Source of the DNA: Crambe crambe
Lineage: Eukaryota; Porifera; Demospongiae; Poecilosclerida; Crambeidae
Assembly: GCA_963924555.1 (NCBI GenBank)
Contig: OZ004584.1
Coordinates: 7,873,001-7,937,000 of the forward strand
Reading direction: 5' to 3'
Length of the DNA: 64,000 nucleotides
Below, piece by piece: positions 1,579-11,047 of this stretch. Made by a program: the position numbers and the translations under genes. The notes under the pieces are model-generated. The model was not told where the DNA came from, did no database searches, and saw only the letters and a list, made by a program, of their open reading frames with translations. Within the stretch, counting starts at the first letter, position 1. Each line of letters opens with the position of its first letter.

Positions 1579-1614
1579 TATACAGTCGCGTATAGCCACC
1601 CGACCGGAAGTGAC
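1579..1614 (+). repeat. Left terminal inverted repeat of 7.1-kb element
   Basis: This copy starts TATACAGTCGCG and carries ACCGGAAGTGAC at 1603-1614, which matches the ETS-family consensus (ACCGGAAGT). The position suits an inward-firing promoter for the element's genes; that use is inference. Confidence 0.7.
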
Positions 1615-2032
1615 ATTGGAATAATACATTTCCTATTTCGAAGCACTTTTTAATTCCGCGAATTTATCAATAAATGTTAGCTACATATAAAATTGTACAC
1701 AGGCCGCAAAAAAGCGGTTAGTTACAAGTGCAGCTGCATAAATAACAAGGAAGAAGTGTTCTATCCCATCGTGTTTGAAATATTCATTAATTTCCGTGTA
1801 GGAAGCAATTAACCACAACTGTAAGGTAAGCATGTAGGTCTGTAGACTTTTGGCACAAATCATTCCGCAAGCAGAACAGTATTAGTTACCCCCTTCACTA
1901 AGTAGCTTAATGATAGATGCACCAAATATCCAAAAACTGTAACTGCAAAAGTATTATACAAGTAGTTATGCATGCTTCATTTATTGAGCAATATGAGAAC
2001 ATTAAAACCATTTTATTCCCAAATTAGTCATC

Positions 2033-2494
2033 ATGTCTAAAGTTCATCCTCGCCACCCTCAACATCCTTGTGGTCCATGTTCTCTCTGTAAACAAGAGTC
2101 CAACTATTATTCCCATCCATCTTCATGGAGTACCTCCATTAAAGAGAAGCTCGTTCAGTTAGAGGAGGATGTGGATGAGGCAAGTTGTGTCTGCAAGCCA
2201 TGTGAAAGAAATATAAAAAGAAATATAAATAAAGATGATTATGTCCCACGTTGGAAGAGCAAAATGATATATCACTGCATCATTCCACAATGCACAGCCA
2301 CCAACACCAATAATACCATCATCCATTCTAGTTCATTCACGATACAGCGTATCTCTACACTATTCAACATAACCATTCCTTCAGATGACCACAACAAACT
2401 TATACCCTTATGCGATACACACTACAAGCAAGTTCACAGATTACTTCATGCTAATATGTATACCCATAACAAGTGCACCACATGTAGACAATAA
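2033..2494 (+). pseudogene. Cys/His-rich N-terminal part of element protein
   Basis: A 153-codon frame with an ATG at 2033. It carries several CxxC pairs (CGPCSLC near residues 13-19, CVCKPC near 52-57, a C-x4-C and C-x2-H set in the second half, and CTTC at the end), so it looks like a zinc-binding region rich in Cys and His. The frame stops at a TAA in CTTCRQ-stop. The adjacent +1 frame continues without a stop into the large protein that follows, so one indel near 2480-2505 has probably split a single gene. I recognise no named domain. A DNA-binding role would fit its place at the front of a mobile-element protein, but that is inference. Confidence 0.55.
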
Positions 2495-3973
2495 TTATAT
2501 TAAGGGCCCAAGCAGGCACTGCCCAGATCCCCAAACCATTAAGGTTCATTTTTCTATTCATGGTGATATTGAAATGAATATTACATCAAGAGACGATATA
2601 TGCACCAACTGTTATAATGCTCACCTTTCAATCATACAAAATAAAGATGTCATTAGCCATGATCACGATCTTGATCAACAAGTGAACTCTGTGGGGGCAG
2701 AGAGAGAGATAGATAATACCATGAAATGTGTGATCACAGCAGTTGGCACTATCCTTAAGAAAAAATTAGCGGTACTGCTGACCGATACCTATAATTTATT
2801 TATGAAGGAAGCAACAAAAGATGCAAGTGAGTCAGAAATAAGGGAAGAAGTACCGAAGAGATGTTTACTCAATAGATTAATTGCCTTTTTTGGCCATCAC
2901 CTCATGTATTCATGTACAGTAAAATCAATGGGTATTGTATTGTATCGACGTGGCACAGATCTCATCACATGCCTAACCAAAACGCTAAAATTGGTTCAGG
3001 GGACGGGGATATCTTTCATACATCTTGCAACTCAAGATATTTGCACTACCCCCCCAGATGAAAACACAAGGGAAAAGGTTTATACGTGGACGAATGAATG
3101 CATTCATTCTCATATCAACACAGTACTAAGAGAAGATGCAATAGAGCCGCAAGATATCTCTACATTTACTGTAGACAATGCAATTTCCATGATCGACCCT
3201 AAAATTTGGAATATGGTAGTTACGATGACCAGAACTGTTACTGAGAAGAGAAAAAATATACCACCAAATAAAATTAGCCTGAAACGAAAATTGCACTGTC
3301 TATACTGCACATGTGTGATGTTCTTTGCCACCAATACATGTTGTTCATTCCCTTTACATGTACTTCTCACTGACATAGTTGATTCTCAAGGAGGCTCCTA
3401 TGAGCTCATCAGGATTCTAAACAAATTTGGGGCAATAGCTTCTGTTGATACACACCGTAGATATGTACGATACCAAGTCAGTAAAATCCAAGAGGTTGGA
3501 GTCTGTCACCAACTTAACCCTGGAGTGCTAAGTATTGTTACAATCGATAATGTTGATATTGCCCAACGGCATGCAATGGTCTATAATAGACAAAACAGAG
3601 GCTTTCATGGCACAACAGTGCAAATAGTTCAACCACTCAGTTGCACAAATCCAGATACCAACATGGACCAGAACACAGTACCTATAAGAGATCTTCTACC
3701 TCTTAATCCAACAAGTGGCCCACCATGCAAAAAAGTTGCAAGACGATCTCGAACATTAACAGAGTATGAGTCTTCATGCTCTTCTAGTAACTCAAAACAA
3801 ATGCTTCCTTCAGAAAATCAACTTGACATAAATCATCCTTTAAACCACATGTCCACAAATCATTATTCTCCTTTAAGAATCGGACATTCACTAAAAGAAT
3901 TTAAACCAACAGAGGACGAAGAAAAGGAAGTGGAAAAATTGAAAAAAATTGGATTCTTTTACATAGTATTAAG
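2495..3973 (+). CDS. Large element protein, middle part, unrecognised
   Basis: An open frame continues from near 2495 to 3977 in a different frame from the segment upstream. It encodes about 490 residues of non-repetitive sequence with a late basic/polar stretch (near 3720-3900) and an acidic, lysine-rich end. The motif GFHGTTVQIVQP near 3600 and the general make-up recall multicopy proteins seen in sponge and cnidarian genomes, a family I know only as uncharacterised. The frame probably ends at a splice donor, AG|gtaaaa at about 3972, rather than at the stop codon a few bases on. The intron that follows contains a 677-bp foldback MITE and the next exon resumes near 4945. No catalytic motif is evident in this part. 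Confidence 0.5.
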
Positions 3974-4035
3974 GTAAAATAGTGGGTGGTTTTACATACA
4001 CCATACACCTTCTATTGTCCCCAATACCACCAGGA

Positions 4036-4056
4036 CCCCCCCCCCCCCCCCCCCCC
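4036..4056 (+). repeat. 21-base poly-C tract
   Basis: An uninterrupted run of 21 C in the intron of the element gene, just upstream of the foldback MITE. Confidence 0.85.
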
Positions 4057-4192
4057 TTAGAGGGCATACATCCCAGGTAGAAATCTACTCATAGCTAGAC
4101 AATAACTACAATTCTAAAAGGTGCACACCAACTAAGGTTAAAGGCAACAGGAGTGCACCATATAGAATTGATGTTGAATGATTGCACACATA

Positions 4193-4869
4193 TTAAGGTG
4201 GCGGCTATGTGTTTGCTCATGAATAATTCAGGCGAGTAGTTGCACCGACTATGAGATGCTACAGTTGAAAACTACAGTTTCATACTAACTAGCACTTCCT
4301 ACTCTACAACTGAGGGCAGACCAGACACTTGAGACCACTACCGTCCCAGAGAAACTCAACTGCTAAGCAGCCATACCTCGATCGATTTTTGATGTCAATT
4401 TTCTCAAATTACAGCAATGTGCTGACCGTATTTTGTACTTTTTTCTTATTATATGAACTAGTGGGCAGGGCCAGACAGAGAGATTTTGAAAAGAAGCCAC
4501 TGTACGCGAGAGCTATGGCCCACCGATCGTTCGATCGACGGCTAAAAGTGATCAAAATTCTGGAGTGTTGGCTTTTCTGGCTAAAATCTCTCCGTGCAGC
4601 CCTGCATCTTAACTGGAATAAGCACAAAAGACAGTCAACACAAGTCTGTAGTTCTAGAAAATTGACGTCAAAAAATCGATCGAGGTATGGCTGCTTAGCG
4701 GTTGAGTTTCTCTGCAACGGTAGTGTTCTCGAGTGTCTGATTAGGCCTCAGTTGTAGAGTAGGAAGTATGAAACTGTAGTTTTCAACTGTACCATCTCAT
4801 AGTTGGTGCAACTACTCGCCTCATTAACTCATGAATTATTCATGAGCAAATGCATACCCGCCGCCTTAA
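4193..4869. mobile_element. TTAA foldback MITE (piggyBac-type)
   Basis: The element is bounded on both sides by TTAA (4193-4196 and 4866-4869). Its left end GGTGGCGGCTATG is mirrored at the right as CATACCCGCCGCC. The inverted similarity continues almost to the centre (around the palindrome GATCGTTCGATC near 4530), so the whole 677 bp can fold into one long hairpin. TTAA duplication is the signature of piggyBac-type transposition. It lies inside the 7.1-kb element, in what looks like an intron, so it is a younger insertion. The frames read across it are palindrome artefacts. Confidence 0.75.
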
Positions 4870-4944
4870 GAGATTATTATTTACTTGTGGGTTATAATTA
4901 TTCTGAATGACAGGTTAGCTCATGAGGGTACAACTGAACAAAAA

Positions 4945-6404
4945 TATTTGTCACTTCACCACCTACTCGAAAAAATATACCCACAATCAAAACCTTCTTC
5001 ATTTACCTTGAAGTACTGGATCAAACTGCCGACTCAAGGGAAACAATATTGGATGTCATTAACAGGCTATACAAAGAATTTGAAATTGGAAACACGCTTG
5101 ACCACCTAGTTGTTGGAGGTGATGCCAAGACCTATAAACTTCTACAGTCTATAAAATTGGATTATGGTGAAGAGTTATCATGGCTACTGCCTTTCCCCGG
5201 AGATTTCCATATTTTGATGAACTATCAACCAGTTCTATCCAAAATTTACTTCGATGCTGGATTGAAGCAACTTGCTTCAGCGAGCGGTTTCAAAGGAGAA
5301 ACTCTGACAGCTTTGCGCAAGTGTTCACACTTTAAGCATGCTCACAGGTTCTTCATGGGGGCATGGGAAGCAATATACATTCATATGGCAAGCACTTTCA
5401 TATCTACAAACACTGAAGTAAGCCAGCTCTTTGAAGCATTGAAGGAAGTAGAAGATGTAACTACCTACGTGACACAAAAGGATGATGAAATATGTAAGTT
5501 GTTACAAAAATTTGAAAGTTATGTCAAGTCAATGGGCAAGAAAGATCCAAATTGGCAGTTTTGGGGTGAATTCATACTCGAAAATTGTTTTGCATATGTT
5601 TCACTCTTCTTTGCTGTTCGATCTGGCAATTGGAAGCTTCGTGTAGCTGCTTTGAAAAATATGGCTCCTCTATTTTGTGCATTTGATAGGCCAACTTACA
5701 GGAAAATACTGCCACAGCATTTGGCAGATTGCCTTCTTCTGCCAAGTGATATTTCACAATCATTCGCAGATGGAAATTTTGTCATCAGCATTAACAGCAC
5801 ATCATGGCATCTTGTAGCTCTAGACGAGGCTCACGAGATGCTAATAAATAGAGACTGTAAATCAGCTGTGATTCATCCAACCAAAGATTTCATACACCGC
5901 ATGGCTCTATATTTTCCCTTCCGCTCAAAAGTGCTCAAAAATTTGAAAGCACAACTTTATCAAACTGATACTCTTGAGTCTATTGATGAAACACACACTT
6001 GCCCGAAAGCCAGAAAGTTCAGTGAAAATGCATGGTCTATGAAAAAATGTGTAGACTCAGGAAAGCTACTTCCAACCGACACCCTGAATCAGTTCTTGCG
6101 GAATCCTTTCACAAACACAACAGCTTCACCCCAGCAACAACAAGATCTACTAACATTCCGAAGTATAGGCCAGGATGATTTTGATACCTTTGTGCAGCAT
6201 ACTTACTTGCGCATATCCAGTGTCAAAGTTAAAACCAGCACACACTCTCTTAAGACTTTTTCTACAGAAAAAGTGGGAGGGAAGAGGTTAATTAACCAGC
6301 TGCAACGTGAAAAAGCACTTGTGACTAAATGCCTGAAAGGGAGACTTCTGCTAGCCAAAATGCAAGAATGTGTGAGTGAAGAATCAGTAACGAACAGTAT
6401 ATAG
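4945..6404 (+). CDS. Large element protein, central part, unrecognised
   Basis: The track-visible ATG is at 5049, but the same frame is open upstream to about 4945. It encodes a plausible continuation (…FFIYLEVLDQTADSRE…), so this is an internal exon rather than a new start. The segment holds about 485 residues with motifs such as LVVGGDAKTY and FPGDFHILMNYQPV, which I associate with the same uncharacterised multicopy family in sponges and cnidarians. No known catalytic motif is visible. It ends at a stop near 6402. An overlapping frame immediately continues the protein (QYIELPRAIADETG), so a frameshift in about 6385-6400 separates this from the nuclease part. Confidence 0.55.
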
Positions 6405-8240
6405 AACTGCCTAGAGCCATCGCTGACGAAACCGGACTGCCTTACAAAGGTCAAAAAAGTAATACTACTGTTTTTTTCAAGAACAGATATAGCAATGTTT
6501 TTCTCAATGCATTCACTCCAAGGTGGGTTCCAGATTGTGTTATTATGGAAGGAATGTTTATGATTCAAACTACCCCCTTGAGAGTTCTATCCAATATGAA
6601 ACAGTACACCAAATTTCTATTGAAAAGGTTTGTGGGATGGTATATTACAGCAGGTGTATCACAGATACACATTGTTTTTGATAATCCGGGGAGGCTAAAA
6701 CCACACCCAAAGACCATCGAAAGGGGAAGGAGAGATGCCACAAATTCAACACTACATGAGCACACTACCTTCACAGATGAAACAGGAATTCCTTTGAGGT
6801 GGAGAGAAACCATACAGTGCCGAATATGCAAAAAAAAATCTTGTGCAGTATACCAGTGATTCCTTCCTGGCACTTGCACCAGAGCTTCTGAAGGATGGTC
6901 AAAAATTGTACGTAGCAGGAGCAGGGGAAGGTGAAGACGAAGACAAAGTATGGTGTACATCTAGTGACGGAATCGAGTACCTTGTTCCTGAACTACAATG
7001 CAATGCAGAAGAGGCTGACACAAGAGTATGGTTACATACCAACTACATGCCAAGAGGCAAAAAGTTGGTCTATTCTCCAGACACTGATGTCTACCTTATT
7101 GGTCTGACAACAGTTGACCTCAAGGAAAGTGAAGTCATTGTACAACTCAGTTCAGTAGGGAGGGAAATGTCATTGCTACACATGAACAGATTCATAGAGG
7201 CATTAGCATCTGATCCATTCTTGAATGGACTTCCTGTAGACAGTCGTCCACAAATAATTCAGATGCTTTACATAGCCACTGGATGTGATTTTATCTCCTT
7301 CTTTGTTGGGATAGGAAAAACCGCTTTCTTCAAGACCTTCTTCAGGTTTGCTGAATTTATATCATGTGGAACAAATCCCCGAATTCCAGGCTCTCTAGCT
7401 TCCAGAGACCCCGAAAGTGATGGCTTCCTTGCATTCATGCGTGCTATTGGGGCAGCATATTACATGAAGCATAGGGGAGCATTTATGGAGAGCTCACCTG
7501 TGGCTCATTTCAACCTATTCACCAATGGTGACTCACCCAAAAAACAACACACAGAGTGGTACTGTGAAATACGATCAAAGGTGTGGGAAAGGATTTCCTT
7601 TGAGGACCAGCTACCCCCTTCGATAGAAGCACTAGAATTGCACTGGTTAAGGGCATTATGGGTGTCCGATTACTGGCAGCAGGCATGTCAAAACACTATG
7701 TCTTTGCTACCACTGCAATGGTTTGGATGGAACACAGATGGTGAAACTGTTACTGTTGAATGGGAGTCGGAAGAGAACAAGGTCAAAATAAGAACCAGGG
7801 TTGCCTTTTTGACACATGGCTGTGGTTGTAAAACCGGATGTACTACAAAGAGATGCAAATGTAAAAAGGAAGGTCATTTATGTGGGCCAGGGTGCGTGTG
7901 TACTCACTGTCAAAACTTGGAGACAGAGACAGGTAATAATAAGTTAATATAATTATACTGTGCTTACTTGGCATGGTACTTTCATCGAAGGTGAGCCATG
8001 TGCTGAAGGTGAACCATGTGCTGAAGATGAACCATGTGCTGAAGACAGATGTAGAACTGGAGATGAGATGGACAGTGACTTTGAAGATGAATTTGATCAC
8101 AGCGATCTTGTCAGTGGTGAGTTCCATGACTAAATTTCTCGTGCTCAATATTGACACTCATTCTGCTCTTAGGATATCCCATAATGGATGATGAAATGGA
8201 GACCACCTGCACAGAATTTGAATGTTGTAACTTCATTTGA
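6390..8240 (+). pseudogene. XPG/FEN1-like nuclease with CXC cysteine tail
   Basis: This is the C-terminal part of the element protein, in three exons (about 6390-7932 with a frameshift at the poly-A run near 6830-6839, then 7991-8116 and 8173-8240, stop TGA). Ordered motifs match the XPG/FEN1 nuclease fold: IHIVFDNP followed by ERGRRD near 6670-6740, like FEN1 VFDG…RR; EEADTR near 7010-7025; SPDTDVYLIG near 7077-7106; then GCDFISFFVGIGKTAFFK near 7285-7340, like the helix-two-turn-helix GCDY…GIG motif. FEN1-family enzymes use the acidic residues to bind two metal ions and cut flap or branched DNA. Next comes a Tesmin/TSO1-like CXC cluster at about 7818-7910 (CGCKTGC…CKCKK…CGPGCVCTHC). The last exons give an acidic GEPCAED repeat tail. 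Nuclease identity rests on motif order only. Confidence 0.65.
7991..8116 (+). repeat. GEPCAED tandem repeat exon of element protein
   Basis: Exon between acceptor gaag|GTGAGCC and donor CAGTG|gtgagt. It encodes three short tandem copies of (G/D)EPCAE followed by an acidic stretch. It keeps phase 1 on both sides, so it fits the upstream donor at 7932 and the terminal exon at 8173. Confidence 0.55.
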
Positions 8241-8608
8241 ACACATGCTCCTAATCACTTGGCACAAATCATTCCGCAACATGCACTCAACTTTTTTTTG
8301 TCCAAATACTCTAGAATATACTCTGAACTTACCTCTTGTTGAATCTTGAAACTGCAAAATACTTCTGCTGGATGTTAGCGGCAAAAGTCGTAGCTCGAGG
8401 CAGCTTGCTAAATTGGTAAGGAGCAAGGTCAACTGCCTGTTTCTCTTCGTGGCGCTAGTCTTACATCGAAAAGTCGGTAAATCGATAAAATACTTCTATT
8501 TAGCAAAAGAATTGTGTAAGAAACTTCTCATTCCATCACCGCTACACGCTGTTAAGAAACTACAAAACTGACCACCTCGGCCTTATAAAATTTGGCCATT
8601 TTGGCCCA

Positions 8609-8662
8609 TGACGTCACTTCCGGTCTGCAATAGAATTTGCACGGTGGCTACGCGACTGTATA
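8609..8662 (-). repeat. Right terminal inverted repeat with ETS/CRE site
   Basis: On the minus strand this end reads TATACAGTCGCGTAGCCACC, then 16 bases absent from the left copy, then GACCGGAAGTGACGTCA. It therefore contains an ETS consensus directly joined to a perfect CRE (TGACGTCA, 8609-8616). The left copy lacks the second half of the CRE. Confidence 0.7.
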
Positions 8663-8740
8663 CGCCCTTGGTAATAGTGCGAGCTACAAATTACGAAAAA
8701 GCAGCTATCGCGCGCGCTAGTGCGGAGGTCGGCCGCTGGG

Positions 8741-8827
8741 AGCGATCTGATTGGTCAGTCGCAGGACTCTTATTTTTACTATATATAGTCTGAAGCGTGC
8801 GTTATGCGACTGACCAATCAGATCGCT
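8741..8827. repeat. Perfect 23-bp inverted repeat (small foldback)
   Basis: Positions 8741-8763 and 8805-8827 are exact reverse complements, separated by 41 bases that contain TATATATA. It sits just outside the 7.1-kb element and may be a separate miniature element or a hairpin regulatory site. Confidence 0.75.
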
Positions 8828-11047
8828 CTAATCGCTATATAAAGCATGCGTGATTGCGTACATTTTTATTTTTGCACATCCCTGCTGTTGAAGTAAGATC
8901 TACTAGAGGTTCCAGAATGGACTGGAAATGATTAATTACTAGGGCAATGTTCAACATTCAGTTGACAGCGAGCGAGCAAGCAAGTATTCTTCAACGATTT
9001 TCATTTGCTGTCGAGTATCTACAGCATTTGACAGTGAGCAATTAAAGTAGCTGATAGGCTTCAGTGCTTGATATTGCTAAGAGTCATGTAAGTGGTGGCA
9101 GGCAGCTGCATACATGCTTACCTCAAAGCACTTAGATAAGCCTAGTGCCTACAAGCCGCTTAGATAAGCCTCTTGTGCCTGCTGCCCAAAAGGCTGTAGA
9201 AATGTTGAGCTTGCTTTGCTGTTGTGTTAGCTATGTAGCTAAGTGGCAGGCGGCTGCATGCATAGAAAGCTAAGTACTTACCACAAAGCACTTGGATATG
9301 TCTAGTGCCTACAATCCACTTAGATAAGCCTAGCCCTACTATCCACCATGCTATATACAAAGCGATGTAGAAATCAATCAAGCAATTGCAACTGGAGCAT
9401 GCGCATAAATGCACGCGCAGGGGCGCTACTATTGCACGACACGTACGTACGTACGTACGCCTGGGGCATTTTGGAGTGTAGACCTAGATATATATATATA
9501 TATTTAAAATTTCAATGAGTCATGACCTGAGAGTCAGCTCACTCGCTTCGCTCGCTCGCTGCAATTATTATCCGCCTTGTGGTGTTCCGTATATTTATGG
9601 TAATAAGCAGTTCATATAAAGTTTGCAGTGTTGCATGGTATTGTTTTTATCCATTTGGGGTACATATTTGGTTGTAGAAATTCACTAGACAGTTAATTAA
9701 TTGATGGAAACAGCCGGCCCAGAATACAATATCCGGTGAGCTGGATAGGTTAAACTTGATCCTAGAAAATTACGCAAAGCAGGTATACTATTTGACAAAG
9801 AAAGGTGTAGTAGTTAGTAACAATGTAGTAGAAAGTTGATATGTATCTTTTAAAACAATTTACTAACATGTACTTCAAGTCCTCAACCACATTAACTATG
9901 GATGATAGAACTACTTCAGGAGATAAAATTACACAAAGTATTTATATGCAATTTTAACTGCTAGAGCACACTTTAACTCGAGTTTTGCTCTGACAATAAT
10001 CCCAGGGTCTTGGCATCTTGTAGTATAGTCTCCCTGGCAGAGTTCAGCCTCTTCATAGCCACTTACAAGCTTGTACGTTAACCACTAAAGTGATCTTTCC
10101 TGTTCATGGAGATACAGCTGCAGCGCAATAGGCGCAACACGGATATCACACGACCGGAAGTGCTTGTTAATATTAATTTAATAGGCGTTTCCAGTCCATG
10201 TAGGAACCTATATAGTCTATGGATCTACGCACAGCTTTGGCAAGTGAAACATAGCTAGTAGACCACGCTAAGCTAATAGCTAGTCGTAGCTATCATAGTC
10301 TAGATAGTGCACGATCATCGGTGCATGTCAATGACATTTTCCTGAAGCACACCGACCAGCCGTGCCACCTAAAAATTGCTTATTACAAACGCACCTATAG
10401 CTATGTAGCTACACCTTTAAAAATTGCTTGCTCCACTTTATATGTAGCCTACAGATCAATGCACAGGATTGCCTAGTCTATACTGTGAGTGTAGCGATTT
10501 ATAACTCTTATCCAGCAGCAGCTTGATGACTACTAACTACTCAAAATGAGCCACCAATTGGCTATGCACAATAGATTTTGTTATATTGTTGGGGAAAATG
10601 GCATGGCTGTCTTTCCTTATTATTGATAACTCGAATGTAAAGGGGGGTGGGTCTTCTTGATACTTGTTTGATTTCTACTATTAGGACATGACTTCTACTG
10701 GCATCGTGCTTGGTCTCAAAAGTGCTGGTAAGTATGTGAAACTTTTTTGTAGGATTCACATGTAATCCATCATGGTATACCATAAGGATTGACTCATGAC
10801 AATCCAGCTTGAACATCTGAGCAAAATATTTAGGCAAGCAAAGTAGATTTAGCTATTATTTCTTATCTACCCACTGCCATGATCAGCATGCAGAGCTAGC
10901 AAGCTTATTATTACAAGTAGAACAAGTAGAAAATGATATGACCATGCCATGCAGGGGGTGGTTTTCATGGCTGACTAGCTTTAGTGATTTACTTGATGGT
11001 GGGTAAGGATCACCTATAATTATTAGTATGTGTGTTTGCTGAGAGAG

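Follow-up and report, generated by a model that had tools for sequence, protein, structure and literature searches.

The 64,000-nucleotide stretch analyzed here (the window; positions 7,873,001 to 7,937,000 of contig OZ004584.1 in the Crambe crambe assembly GCA_963924555.1) contains, at its positions 1583-8658, a 7,076-bp DNA transposon with inverted ends (CAGTCGCG...CGCGACTG), flanked on both sides by TATA. Its long reading frames correspond, in order, to a cysteine-rich N-terminal part, a transposase part matched by the Pfam family DUF6589, an XPG/FEN1-like nuclease part and a CXC cysteine cluster. Judged from sequence, the block is a degenerate AcademX DNA transposon, an inactive copy of an autonomous element that encodes one long protein, a reading to which a probability of roughly 0.9 is given. 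The element is real, yet its kind (Academ) has already been described, and it is not a new class. Its features, in window positions, are as follows.

1579-1582: left target-site duplication, TATA; the same 4-mer stands at both ends, and other copies carry others
1583-1600, plus strand: left terminal inverted repeat, CAGTCGCG...GCCACC; left end region matched at least 32 times in the genome
1602-1614, plus strand: subterminal motif GACCGGAAGTGAC, exact match
2033-3973, plus strand: exon 1, with the cysteine-rich N-terminal part and a region with a conserved (V/A/I)DN acid, a candidate for the first catalytic D, from alignments; frame changes near 2490
3974-4913, plus strand: putative intron, GT...AG, about 0.94 kb; absent from the single-frame relatives L011 and L012
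4193-4869, no strand assigned: palindromic miniature inverted-repeat transposable element (MITE) nested in the putative intron, with inverted repeats I1, I2 and I4; at least 40 genomic places
4914-6404, plus strand: exon 2, transposase part, DUF6589 (PF20231), E 7.4e-14; frame changes near 5000
6392-7800, plus strand: XPG/FEN1-like nuclease part, with seven conserved acids and GCDF...GIGK; frame changes near 6830
7815-7916, plus strand: CXC (TCR/Tesmin-like) cysteine cluster, from Pfam PF03638 and lin-54 in the PDB
8613-8625, minus strand: subterminal motif GACCGGAAGTGAC, right side, exact match
8643-8658, minus strand: right terminal inverted repeat (GGTGGCTACGCGACTG on the plus strand); at least 31 genomic matches to the right end region
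8659-8662: right target-site duplication, TATA, from flank comparison of copies

Ends and coding structure of the element

A preliminary description of this stretch, made without database searches, had noted terminal repeats and an internal motif at both ends of a 7.1-kb block of same-strand coding sequence. The repeats are real and inverted: TATACAGTCGCGTA occurs at 1579-1592 (plus strand) and 8649-8662 (minus strand), the only two matches in the window at up to two mismatches, against a shuffle expectation of 0.08. The internal motif, GACCGGAAGTGAC, is likewise present in exact form just inside each end, and a third site with two mismatches lies at 10152-10164. The outermost TATA is assigned to the target duplication and not to the element, because other copies begin at CAG and are flanked by 4-mers other than TATA. 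The coding block holds in part: all long frames between 1583 and 8658 are on the plus strand, but shorter frames of up to 131 residues are present on the minus strand and the coding sequence is interrupted.

The interruptions are best seen against a near-full-length sister copy (L035, on contig C19), whose 7.1-kb alignment to the window copy shows 30 mismatches and 15 gaps, and whose left terminal inverted repeat is 2 bp shorter. Relative to L035, frame-changing differences break the window copy near 2490, 5000, 6390 and 6830, while L035 is broken by its own frame-changing difference at the place matching window position 3376. The frame changes near 2490 in the window and at the 3376 place in L035 are each an addition of exactly 4 bp, so that either sister copy has one, and they could be excision footprints of elements with 4-bp duplications. 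In two members of a related family in the same genome, L011 and L012, a single unbroken frame of 1762 residues takes in all four parts, the cysteine-rich N-terminus, DUF6589, the nuclease-like part and the CXC cluster, and the normal product is therefore taken to be a single fused protein. We infer that the segment at 3974-4913, which these relatives lack, is an intron. The 677-bp foldback within it is an abundant long-palindrome MITE: the 40 best of 282 candidates scored gave 84 match rows over both strands. The window element is most likely a worn-out copy of an autonomous transposon.

Copies and insertion sites in the host genome

The left 282 bp and the right 283 bp of the element were searched against the 143-Mb host genome, with only the best candidates scored. 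At least 32 stretches match the left end and at least 31 the right, counting the window copy and including some that are pieces of one copy. Twenty places were fetched and 18 examined for both ends (L052 and L053, neither of which showed a right end, were left out); both ends were readable in 16, including the window copy (L034), and were not in L040 and L051. Perfect 4-bp target duplications flank 14 of these 16 copies, and the remaining two, L036 and L037, have duplications of 3 and 2 bp. L044 and L045 (C17:2341950 and C17:2326130) lie about 16 kb apart with identical flanks and an identical TGTT duplication; because their flanks are identical, they are treated as one insertion, apparently carried along in a segmental duplication. 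Counted in this way, 13 of 15 independent insertions have a 4-bp duplication.

These copies bear out the earlier view of the block as a DNA element: the genome-wide search that had been suggested for further copies with the same two ends found them, and 13 of the 15 independent insertions sharing those ends carry a 4-bp duplication of their own. The several frame changes in the window copy might instead suggest that the block is a gene of the host, or that unrelated repeats happen to enclose it, but the comparison of ends and duplications refutes this explanation, and its probability is negligible.

The lengths are about 2.6 kb in eleven of the 16 copies, 1.8 kb in one and about 7-7.6 kb in four; two of these four, L038 and L039, contain other inserted sequence. 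When L036, L037, L038, L048 and L050 were aligned to the element, the first 0.65 kb (84-86%) and the last 0.43 kb (94%) were common, together with short, partly inverted pieces of the window element's interior. L037, the one of these five that was scanned for frames, has none longer than 161 residues. All five are taken as non-autonomous. In the 7.6-kb copy L038, which has the same ends, an 829-residue frame on the opposite strand has a C-terminal cysteine pattern that resembles a PHD finger by eye, and is probably a nested or captured gene. L039 and the locus L010 are interrupted by long frames that by eye resemble gag/pol of long terminal repeat retrotransposons.

Seven loci of related families, L011-L017, were also fetched, and the duplications are 4 bp (TATC, GAAA and GAAC) in all three with both ends readable. 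L011 and L012 are 43% identical to the C-terminal part of the window's protein. They are 99.8% identical to each other over 6,293 bp (13 mismatches), L011 being about 1.15 kb longer near the right end, and they lie in different 4-bp duplications, TATC and GAAA. This near-identity, the intact frame and the differing duplications point to recent movement of this family. In a third family, L013 and L014 agree at 99.8% over 5,923 bp; the duplication at L013 is GAAC, and the right end of L014 falls outside the piece retrieved. Both ends could not be read in L015, L016 or L017, the last of which matches the window element's left end over 47 bp at 85%. In three families a CGGAAGT motif, which we take to be ETS-like, lies no more than about 45 bp from one or both ends (both ends here, at 1602-1614 and 8613-8625, and one end each in L012 and L013), and could be a transposase-binding site or a host promoter site.

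Beyond the host, an alignment of the nuclease part (A1, described below) gave 12 pattern matches in viral contigs and 27 in genome contigs, with no confirmed relatives in either. Outside the element, a perfect 24-bp inverted repeat (8740-8763 and 8805-8828) lies about 80 bp past its right end, and a 55-nt direct repeat within 9117-9331 consists of two copies, 160 bp apart and 89% alike.

Transposase and nuclease parts of the protein

The frame at 4938-6404 matches Pfam DUF6589 (PF20231) at E 7.4e-14 over residues 7-309, and the match recurs in all six relatives aligned. Candidate catalytic acids are conserved in the alignment in the motifs VDN/ADN, GD and DEAHE. The DUF6589 region, together with the stretch immediately preceding it, presumably forms an RNase-H-like DDD/E core, and the window element very probably has a DDD/E transposase. 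Weighing against this, the D-D-E triad was read by eye; of the six aligned rows, five (including two that are near-identical) cover its first acid, as does the window. A profile search of the DUF6589 region returned no PDB match, and an NCBIfam search of two proteins returned none. The preliminary description had proposed a nuclease used instead of a DDE transposase; that proposal is not borne out, as the nuclease is fused C-terminally behind DUF6589 in one protein.

The C-terminal motifs noted earlier, VFDNP...RGRRD, EEADTR, SPDTDV, GCDF...GIGK and the CXC cluster, are all present in the order given. The C-terminal frame of 384 residues has at least 117 matches in the host genome, and 13 sequences from the better of these were aligned (A1), three of which, L054, L057 and L015, are near-identical. 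Seven acids in FEN1/EXO1 order are acidic in all covering rows, the first two in 12 of 12 (at the first, ten rows have E and two have D) and the other five in 13 of 13. By order, we equate them with D34, D86, E158, E160, D179, D181 and D233 of FEN1. Of the 13 rows, 12 keep GCD in the last motif and nine keep GxGK, whose K is present in all 13. Besides the window, the nuclease part is present in the long-frame relatives read (L011, L012, L013/L014, L015 and L016). For dN/dS (nonsynonymous over synonymous divergence), just three pairs have dS below 1.5, all near-identical. Pfam TCR (PF03638) matches the CXC cluster of the window frame with E 0.0034, which falls short of the Pfam cut-off, and matches six of 13 relatives, at best with 2.2e-8; lin-54 in the PDB is matched at E 0.031.

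For a profile comparison with hhalign, the reference was built from joined host EXO1, FEN1 and XPG exons only, the genes being split by introns and the joins approximate. The FEN1 exon was assigned by its PDB match; a joint PDB match contributed to the naming of those we call EXO1 and XPG. The reference was restricted to host exons because wider searches of the XPG family confirmed nothing: a 51-residue host FEN1 exon gave 341 pattern matches in genome contigs, none confirmed, and none in plasmids or phages, and a three-exon alignment (A3) gave 138 in viral contigs, none confirmed. Unguided, hhalign aligned SPDTDV with ITEDSD, and so D-T-D with the D-S-D of host EXO1, and GCDF...GIG with GCDY...GIG. 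The nuclease part scored 22.8, compared with 15.0 for the transposase part as a control and 12.2 for a reversed profile. The whole-region score was equalled or exceeded by two of 300 column shuffles, and the score of the C half was reached by none of 200.

Several results count against a nuclease of this family. The probability reported by hhalign is 1.7% (P 0.029). The C-half signal is confined to 28 columns around GCDF...GIG. The N-half score is reached by 27 of 200 shuffles, and its best alignment differs from the one expected. The motif order had also guided where the region was split. Neither Pfam XPG_N nor XPG_I matches any of the 13 members, even with E values of up to 1 allowed. In a PDB profile search Exonuclease 1 is the best match besides lin-54, but only at E 0.49, close to the chance-like GH127 (E 0.69) and MG662 (E 0.98); its alignment is in three weak pieces, one of them not collinear with the rest. 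The region could thus be an unrelated conserved domain, neither PIN nor FEN, that resembles the motif order by chance, as the missing Pfam matches, the insignificant N half, the low hhalign probability and spacers longer than in the joined host EXO1 exons would allow. This is improbable given the order of the seven acids, the unguided alignment of D-T-D and GCDF...GIG with their EXO1 counterparts, the C-half score and the statement, in the available excerpt of PMC10045372, that AcademX encodes a nuclease. The case for an XPG/FEN1-like part is good but not conclusive; a PIN/FEN fold is suggested by motifs and weak profile scores. Of the XPG/FEN1 identity first proposed from the motifs, the acid order and the C half of the profile comparison stand; the N half and the Pfam XPG models lend it no support.

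Linkage between the parts was analyzed in lists of host-genome matches (at least 110 for DUF6589, 146 for Helicase_C and 117 for the nuclease), paired by position; all counts below are among the matches listed. The DUF6589 matches merge into 81 loci. At 19 of them the nuclease follows downstream in the same orientation, at a distance of 0.8-2.0 kb; at 39 a convergent Helicase_C, encoded on the opposite strand, follows at 0.4-1.3 kb; no locus has both partners. In 200 random placements the means were 0.135 nuclease pairs (maximum 1) and 0.23 helicase pairs (maximum 3). A same-strand Helicase_C within 5 kb also occurs at one of the 19 nuclease-linked and two of the 39 helicase-linked loci. DUF6589 scores above the Pfam cut-off at both kinds of locus, a sharing that Academ would lead one to expect, and the 39 helicase-linked loci are probably AcademH. 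Equal scores are seen at three of them, C3:7080171, C17:2224650 and C20:3735769.

Not all of these counts favor a fixed pairing. Neither partner is found at 23 of the 81 DUF6589 loci, and the Pfam profile places DUF6589 upstream of only 19 of 85 merged nuclease loci and only 17 of the 46 that are at least 900 bp long. These low counts are largely a matter of profile sensitivity. When the genome is probed with the transposase part of the sister copy instead, a transposase part lies upstream of 53 of the 85 nuclease loci and 39 of the 46 long ones; among 67 loci found by this probe, 53 are followed by the nuclease and none by a helicase (39 of the at least 146 Helicase_C matches compared). Transposase part and nuclease therefore travel together. 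The same probe did not find the helicase-linked loci, and the link between the nuclease and helicase lineages thus rests on the Pfam profile.

It might still be asked whether the element represents a new superfamily in which the XPG/FEN1-like nuclease is itself the transposase and no DDE enzyme is involved. Its seven acids are acidic in every covering row, it is kept in all the long-frame relatives named above, and 66 of 85 nuclease loci among the matches listed have no upstream DUF6589 by the Pfam profile. Set against this are the presence of DUF6589 within the same protein, the window-type transposase part that precedes 39 of 46 long nuclease loci, the 39 of 81 DUF6589 loci that have a helicase and no nuclease, and the classification of Academ as DDD/E in the available part of PMC9587614. 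Because of those 39 helicase-linked loci, it is the shared part, and not the nuclease, that looks constant. A nuclease acting as the transposase is accordingly very improbable, and an AcademX element with a DDD/E core is preferred.

For such an element, a cut-and-paste scheme may be proposed. The DUF6589 part would bind and cut the ends and join their 3' ends to target positions about 4 bp apart. The nuclease, less certainly, would process the other strand, acting at excision on the non-transferred 5' strand or, after joining, on flaps and gaps, and the cysteine-rich and CXC modules may bind DNA. Two versions differ in what is left to the nuclease. It may be, as a tentative but substantial possibility, that the DDE core makes all end cuts and that the nuclease is an accessory that removes flaps after strand transfer or binds branched DNA; this would be a variant of mechanism within the AcademX explanation, not a rival to it. 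Flaps at 5' ends are what FEN1-family enzymes cut, and the helicase-linked lineage has a DUF6589 core without this nuclease, which is therefore not needed for the basic chemistry there. An accessory role fits less well with a nuclease that is fused and not separate, and with a duplication length that differs between the lineages (PMC10045372, as far as its available text goes), a difference which suggests that the partner enzyme alters the geometry of cutting or joining. The second version, considered rather unlikely, makes AcademX a two-nuclease single-chain transposase, in which the DDE core handles the 3' strand and the FEN/XPG-like domain cuts the non-transferred 5' strand. If it were true, the swap of nuclease and helicase between the X and H lineages would alter the excision route and the duplication length. 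Since near-identical relatives with an intact frame exist, the role of a flap-nuclease-like domain inside a transposase is directly testable.

Relation to Academ and other known systems

The AcademX lineage, whose X presumably stands for XPG, is reportedly due to Kojima in 2020. The preliminary description knew of no described superfamily with this layout, but in the available excerpt of PMC10045372 AcademX is described as encoding a nuclease and making duplications of 3 or 4 bp, and AcademH as making duplications of 9 or 10 bp, the difference being tied to nuclease versus helicase. The accessible parts of other papers list Academ among the superfamilies with a DDD/E transposase (PMC9587614), count it as a DDE/D superfamily whose members average 5,565 bp in a bivalve library (PMC10294476) and describe AcademH helicases in fungi (PMC10799480); the part of PMC12730594 that was available does not mention it. 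A literature search found no paper combining Academ, XPG and transposon, and one limited to the single name DUF6589 found no paper on that family.

The features expected of AcademX are found here: duplications of 4 bp at 14 of 16 copies and of 3 bp at one (with one of 2 bp), terminal inverted repeats, a nuclease without the AcademH helicase (none of 19 nuclease-linked loci among the matches listed has a convergent helicase) and, through the DUF6589 Pfam profile, a transposase homologous to that of AcademH, the loci presumed to be AcademH being identified by their helicase. The nuclease part, in turn, has the seven active-site acids of the XPG/FEN1 family in order (12 of 12 or 13 of 13 covering rows). 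The element is therefore most likely AcademX. Membership in a described superfamily means that no new class is opened; DUF6589, a family of unknown function in Pfam, is instead tied to the Academ transposase by genome context and looks like its core, a link that may not yet be in print. The nuclease-linked and helicase-linked lineages also stand side by side in one eukaryotic genome, with no joint loci among the matches listed.

Compared by description only, AcademX resembles the window element in its 3-4-bp duplications, its nuclease and its companion helicase lineage. No difference was found in this comparison, and the ends (CAGTCGCG) and the MITE-bearing intron look like ordinary variation. 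AcademH, represented by the 39 helicase-linked loci in the same genome, has the DUF6589 region in common with the window element by Pfam profile, but carries a helicase on the opposite strand in place of the fused nuclease, and its published duplications are 9-10 bp (PMC10045372, available excerpt).

With the Rad2 family (FEN1, EXO1, XPG and GEN1), the window nuclease has in common the order of the seven acids, the DxD and the GCDY...GIG helix-two-turn-helix. It is unlike that family in having E or D at the first acid, in its fusion to a transposase and a CXC cluster, and in lying beyond the Pfam XPG models. Spacers between the acid groups are 110, 21 and 67 residues in the closest intact relative versus 74, 19 and 51 in host EXO1, for which the exon joins are approximate.

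A more distant likeness may be drawn to Tn7. TnsA of Tn7 is usually a protein of its own, with a fold like that of restriction endonucleases. The possible resemblance to TnsA with TnsB, a DDE enzyme working with a second nuclease, would be one of mode of working only and not of membership. If AcademX did use two nucleases, it would be a eukaryotic counterpart, in its way of working, to the pair of TnsB and TnsA.

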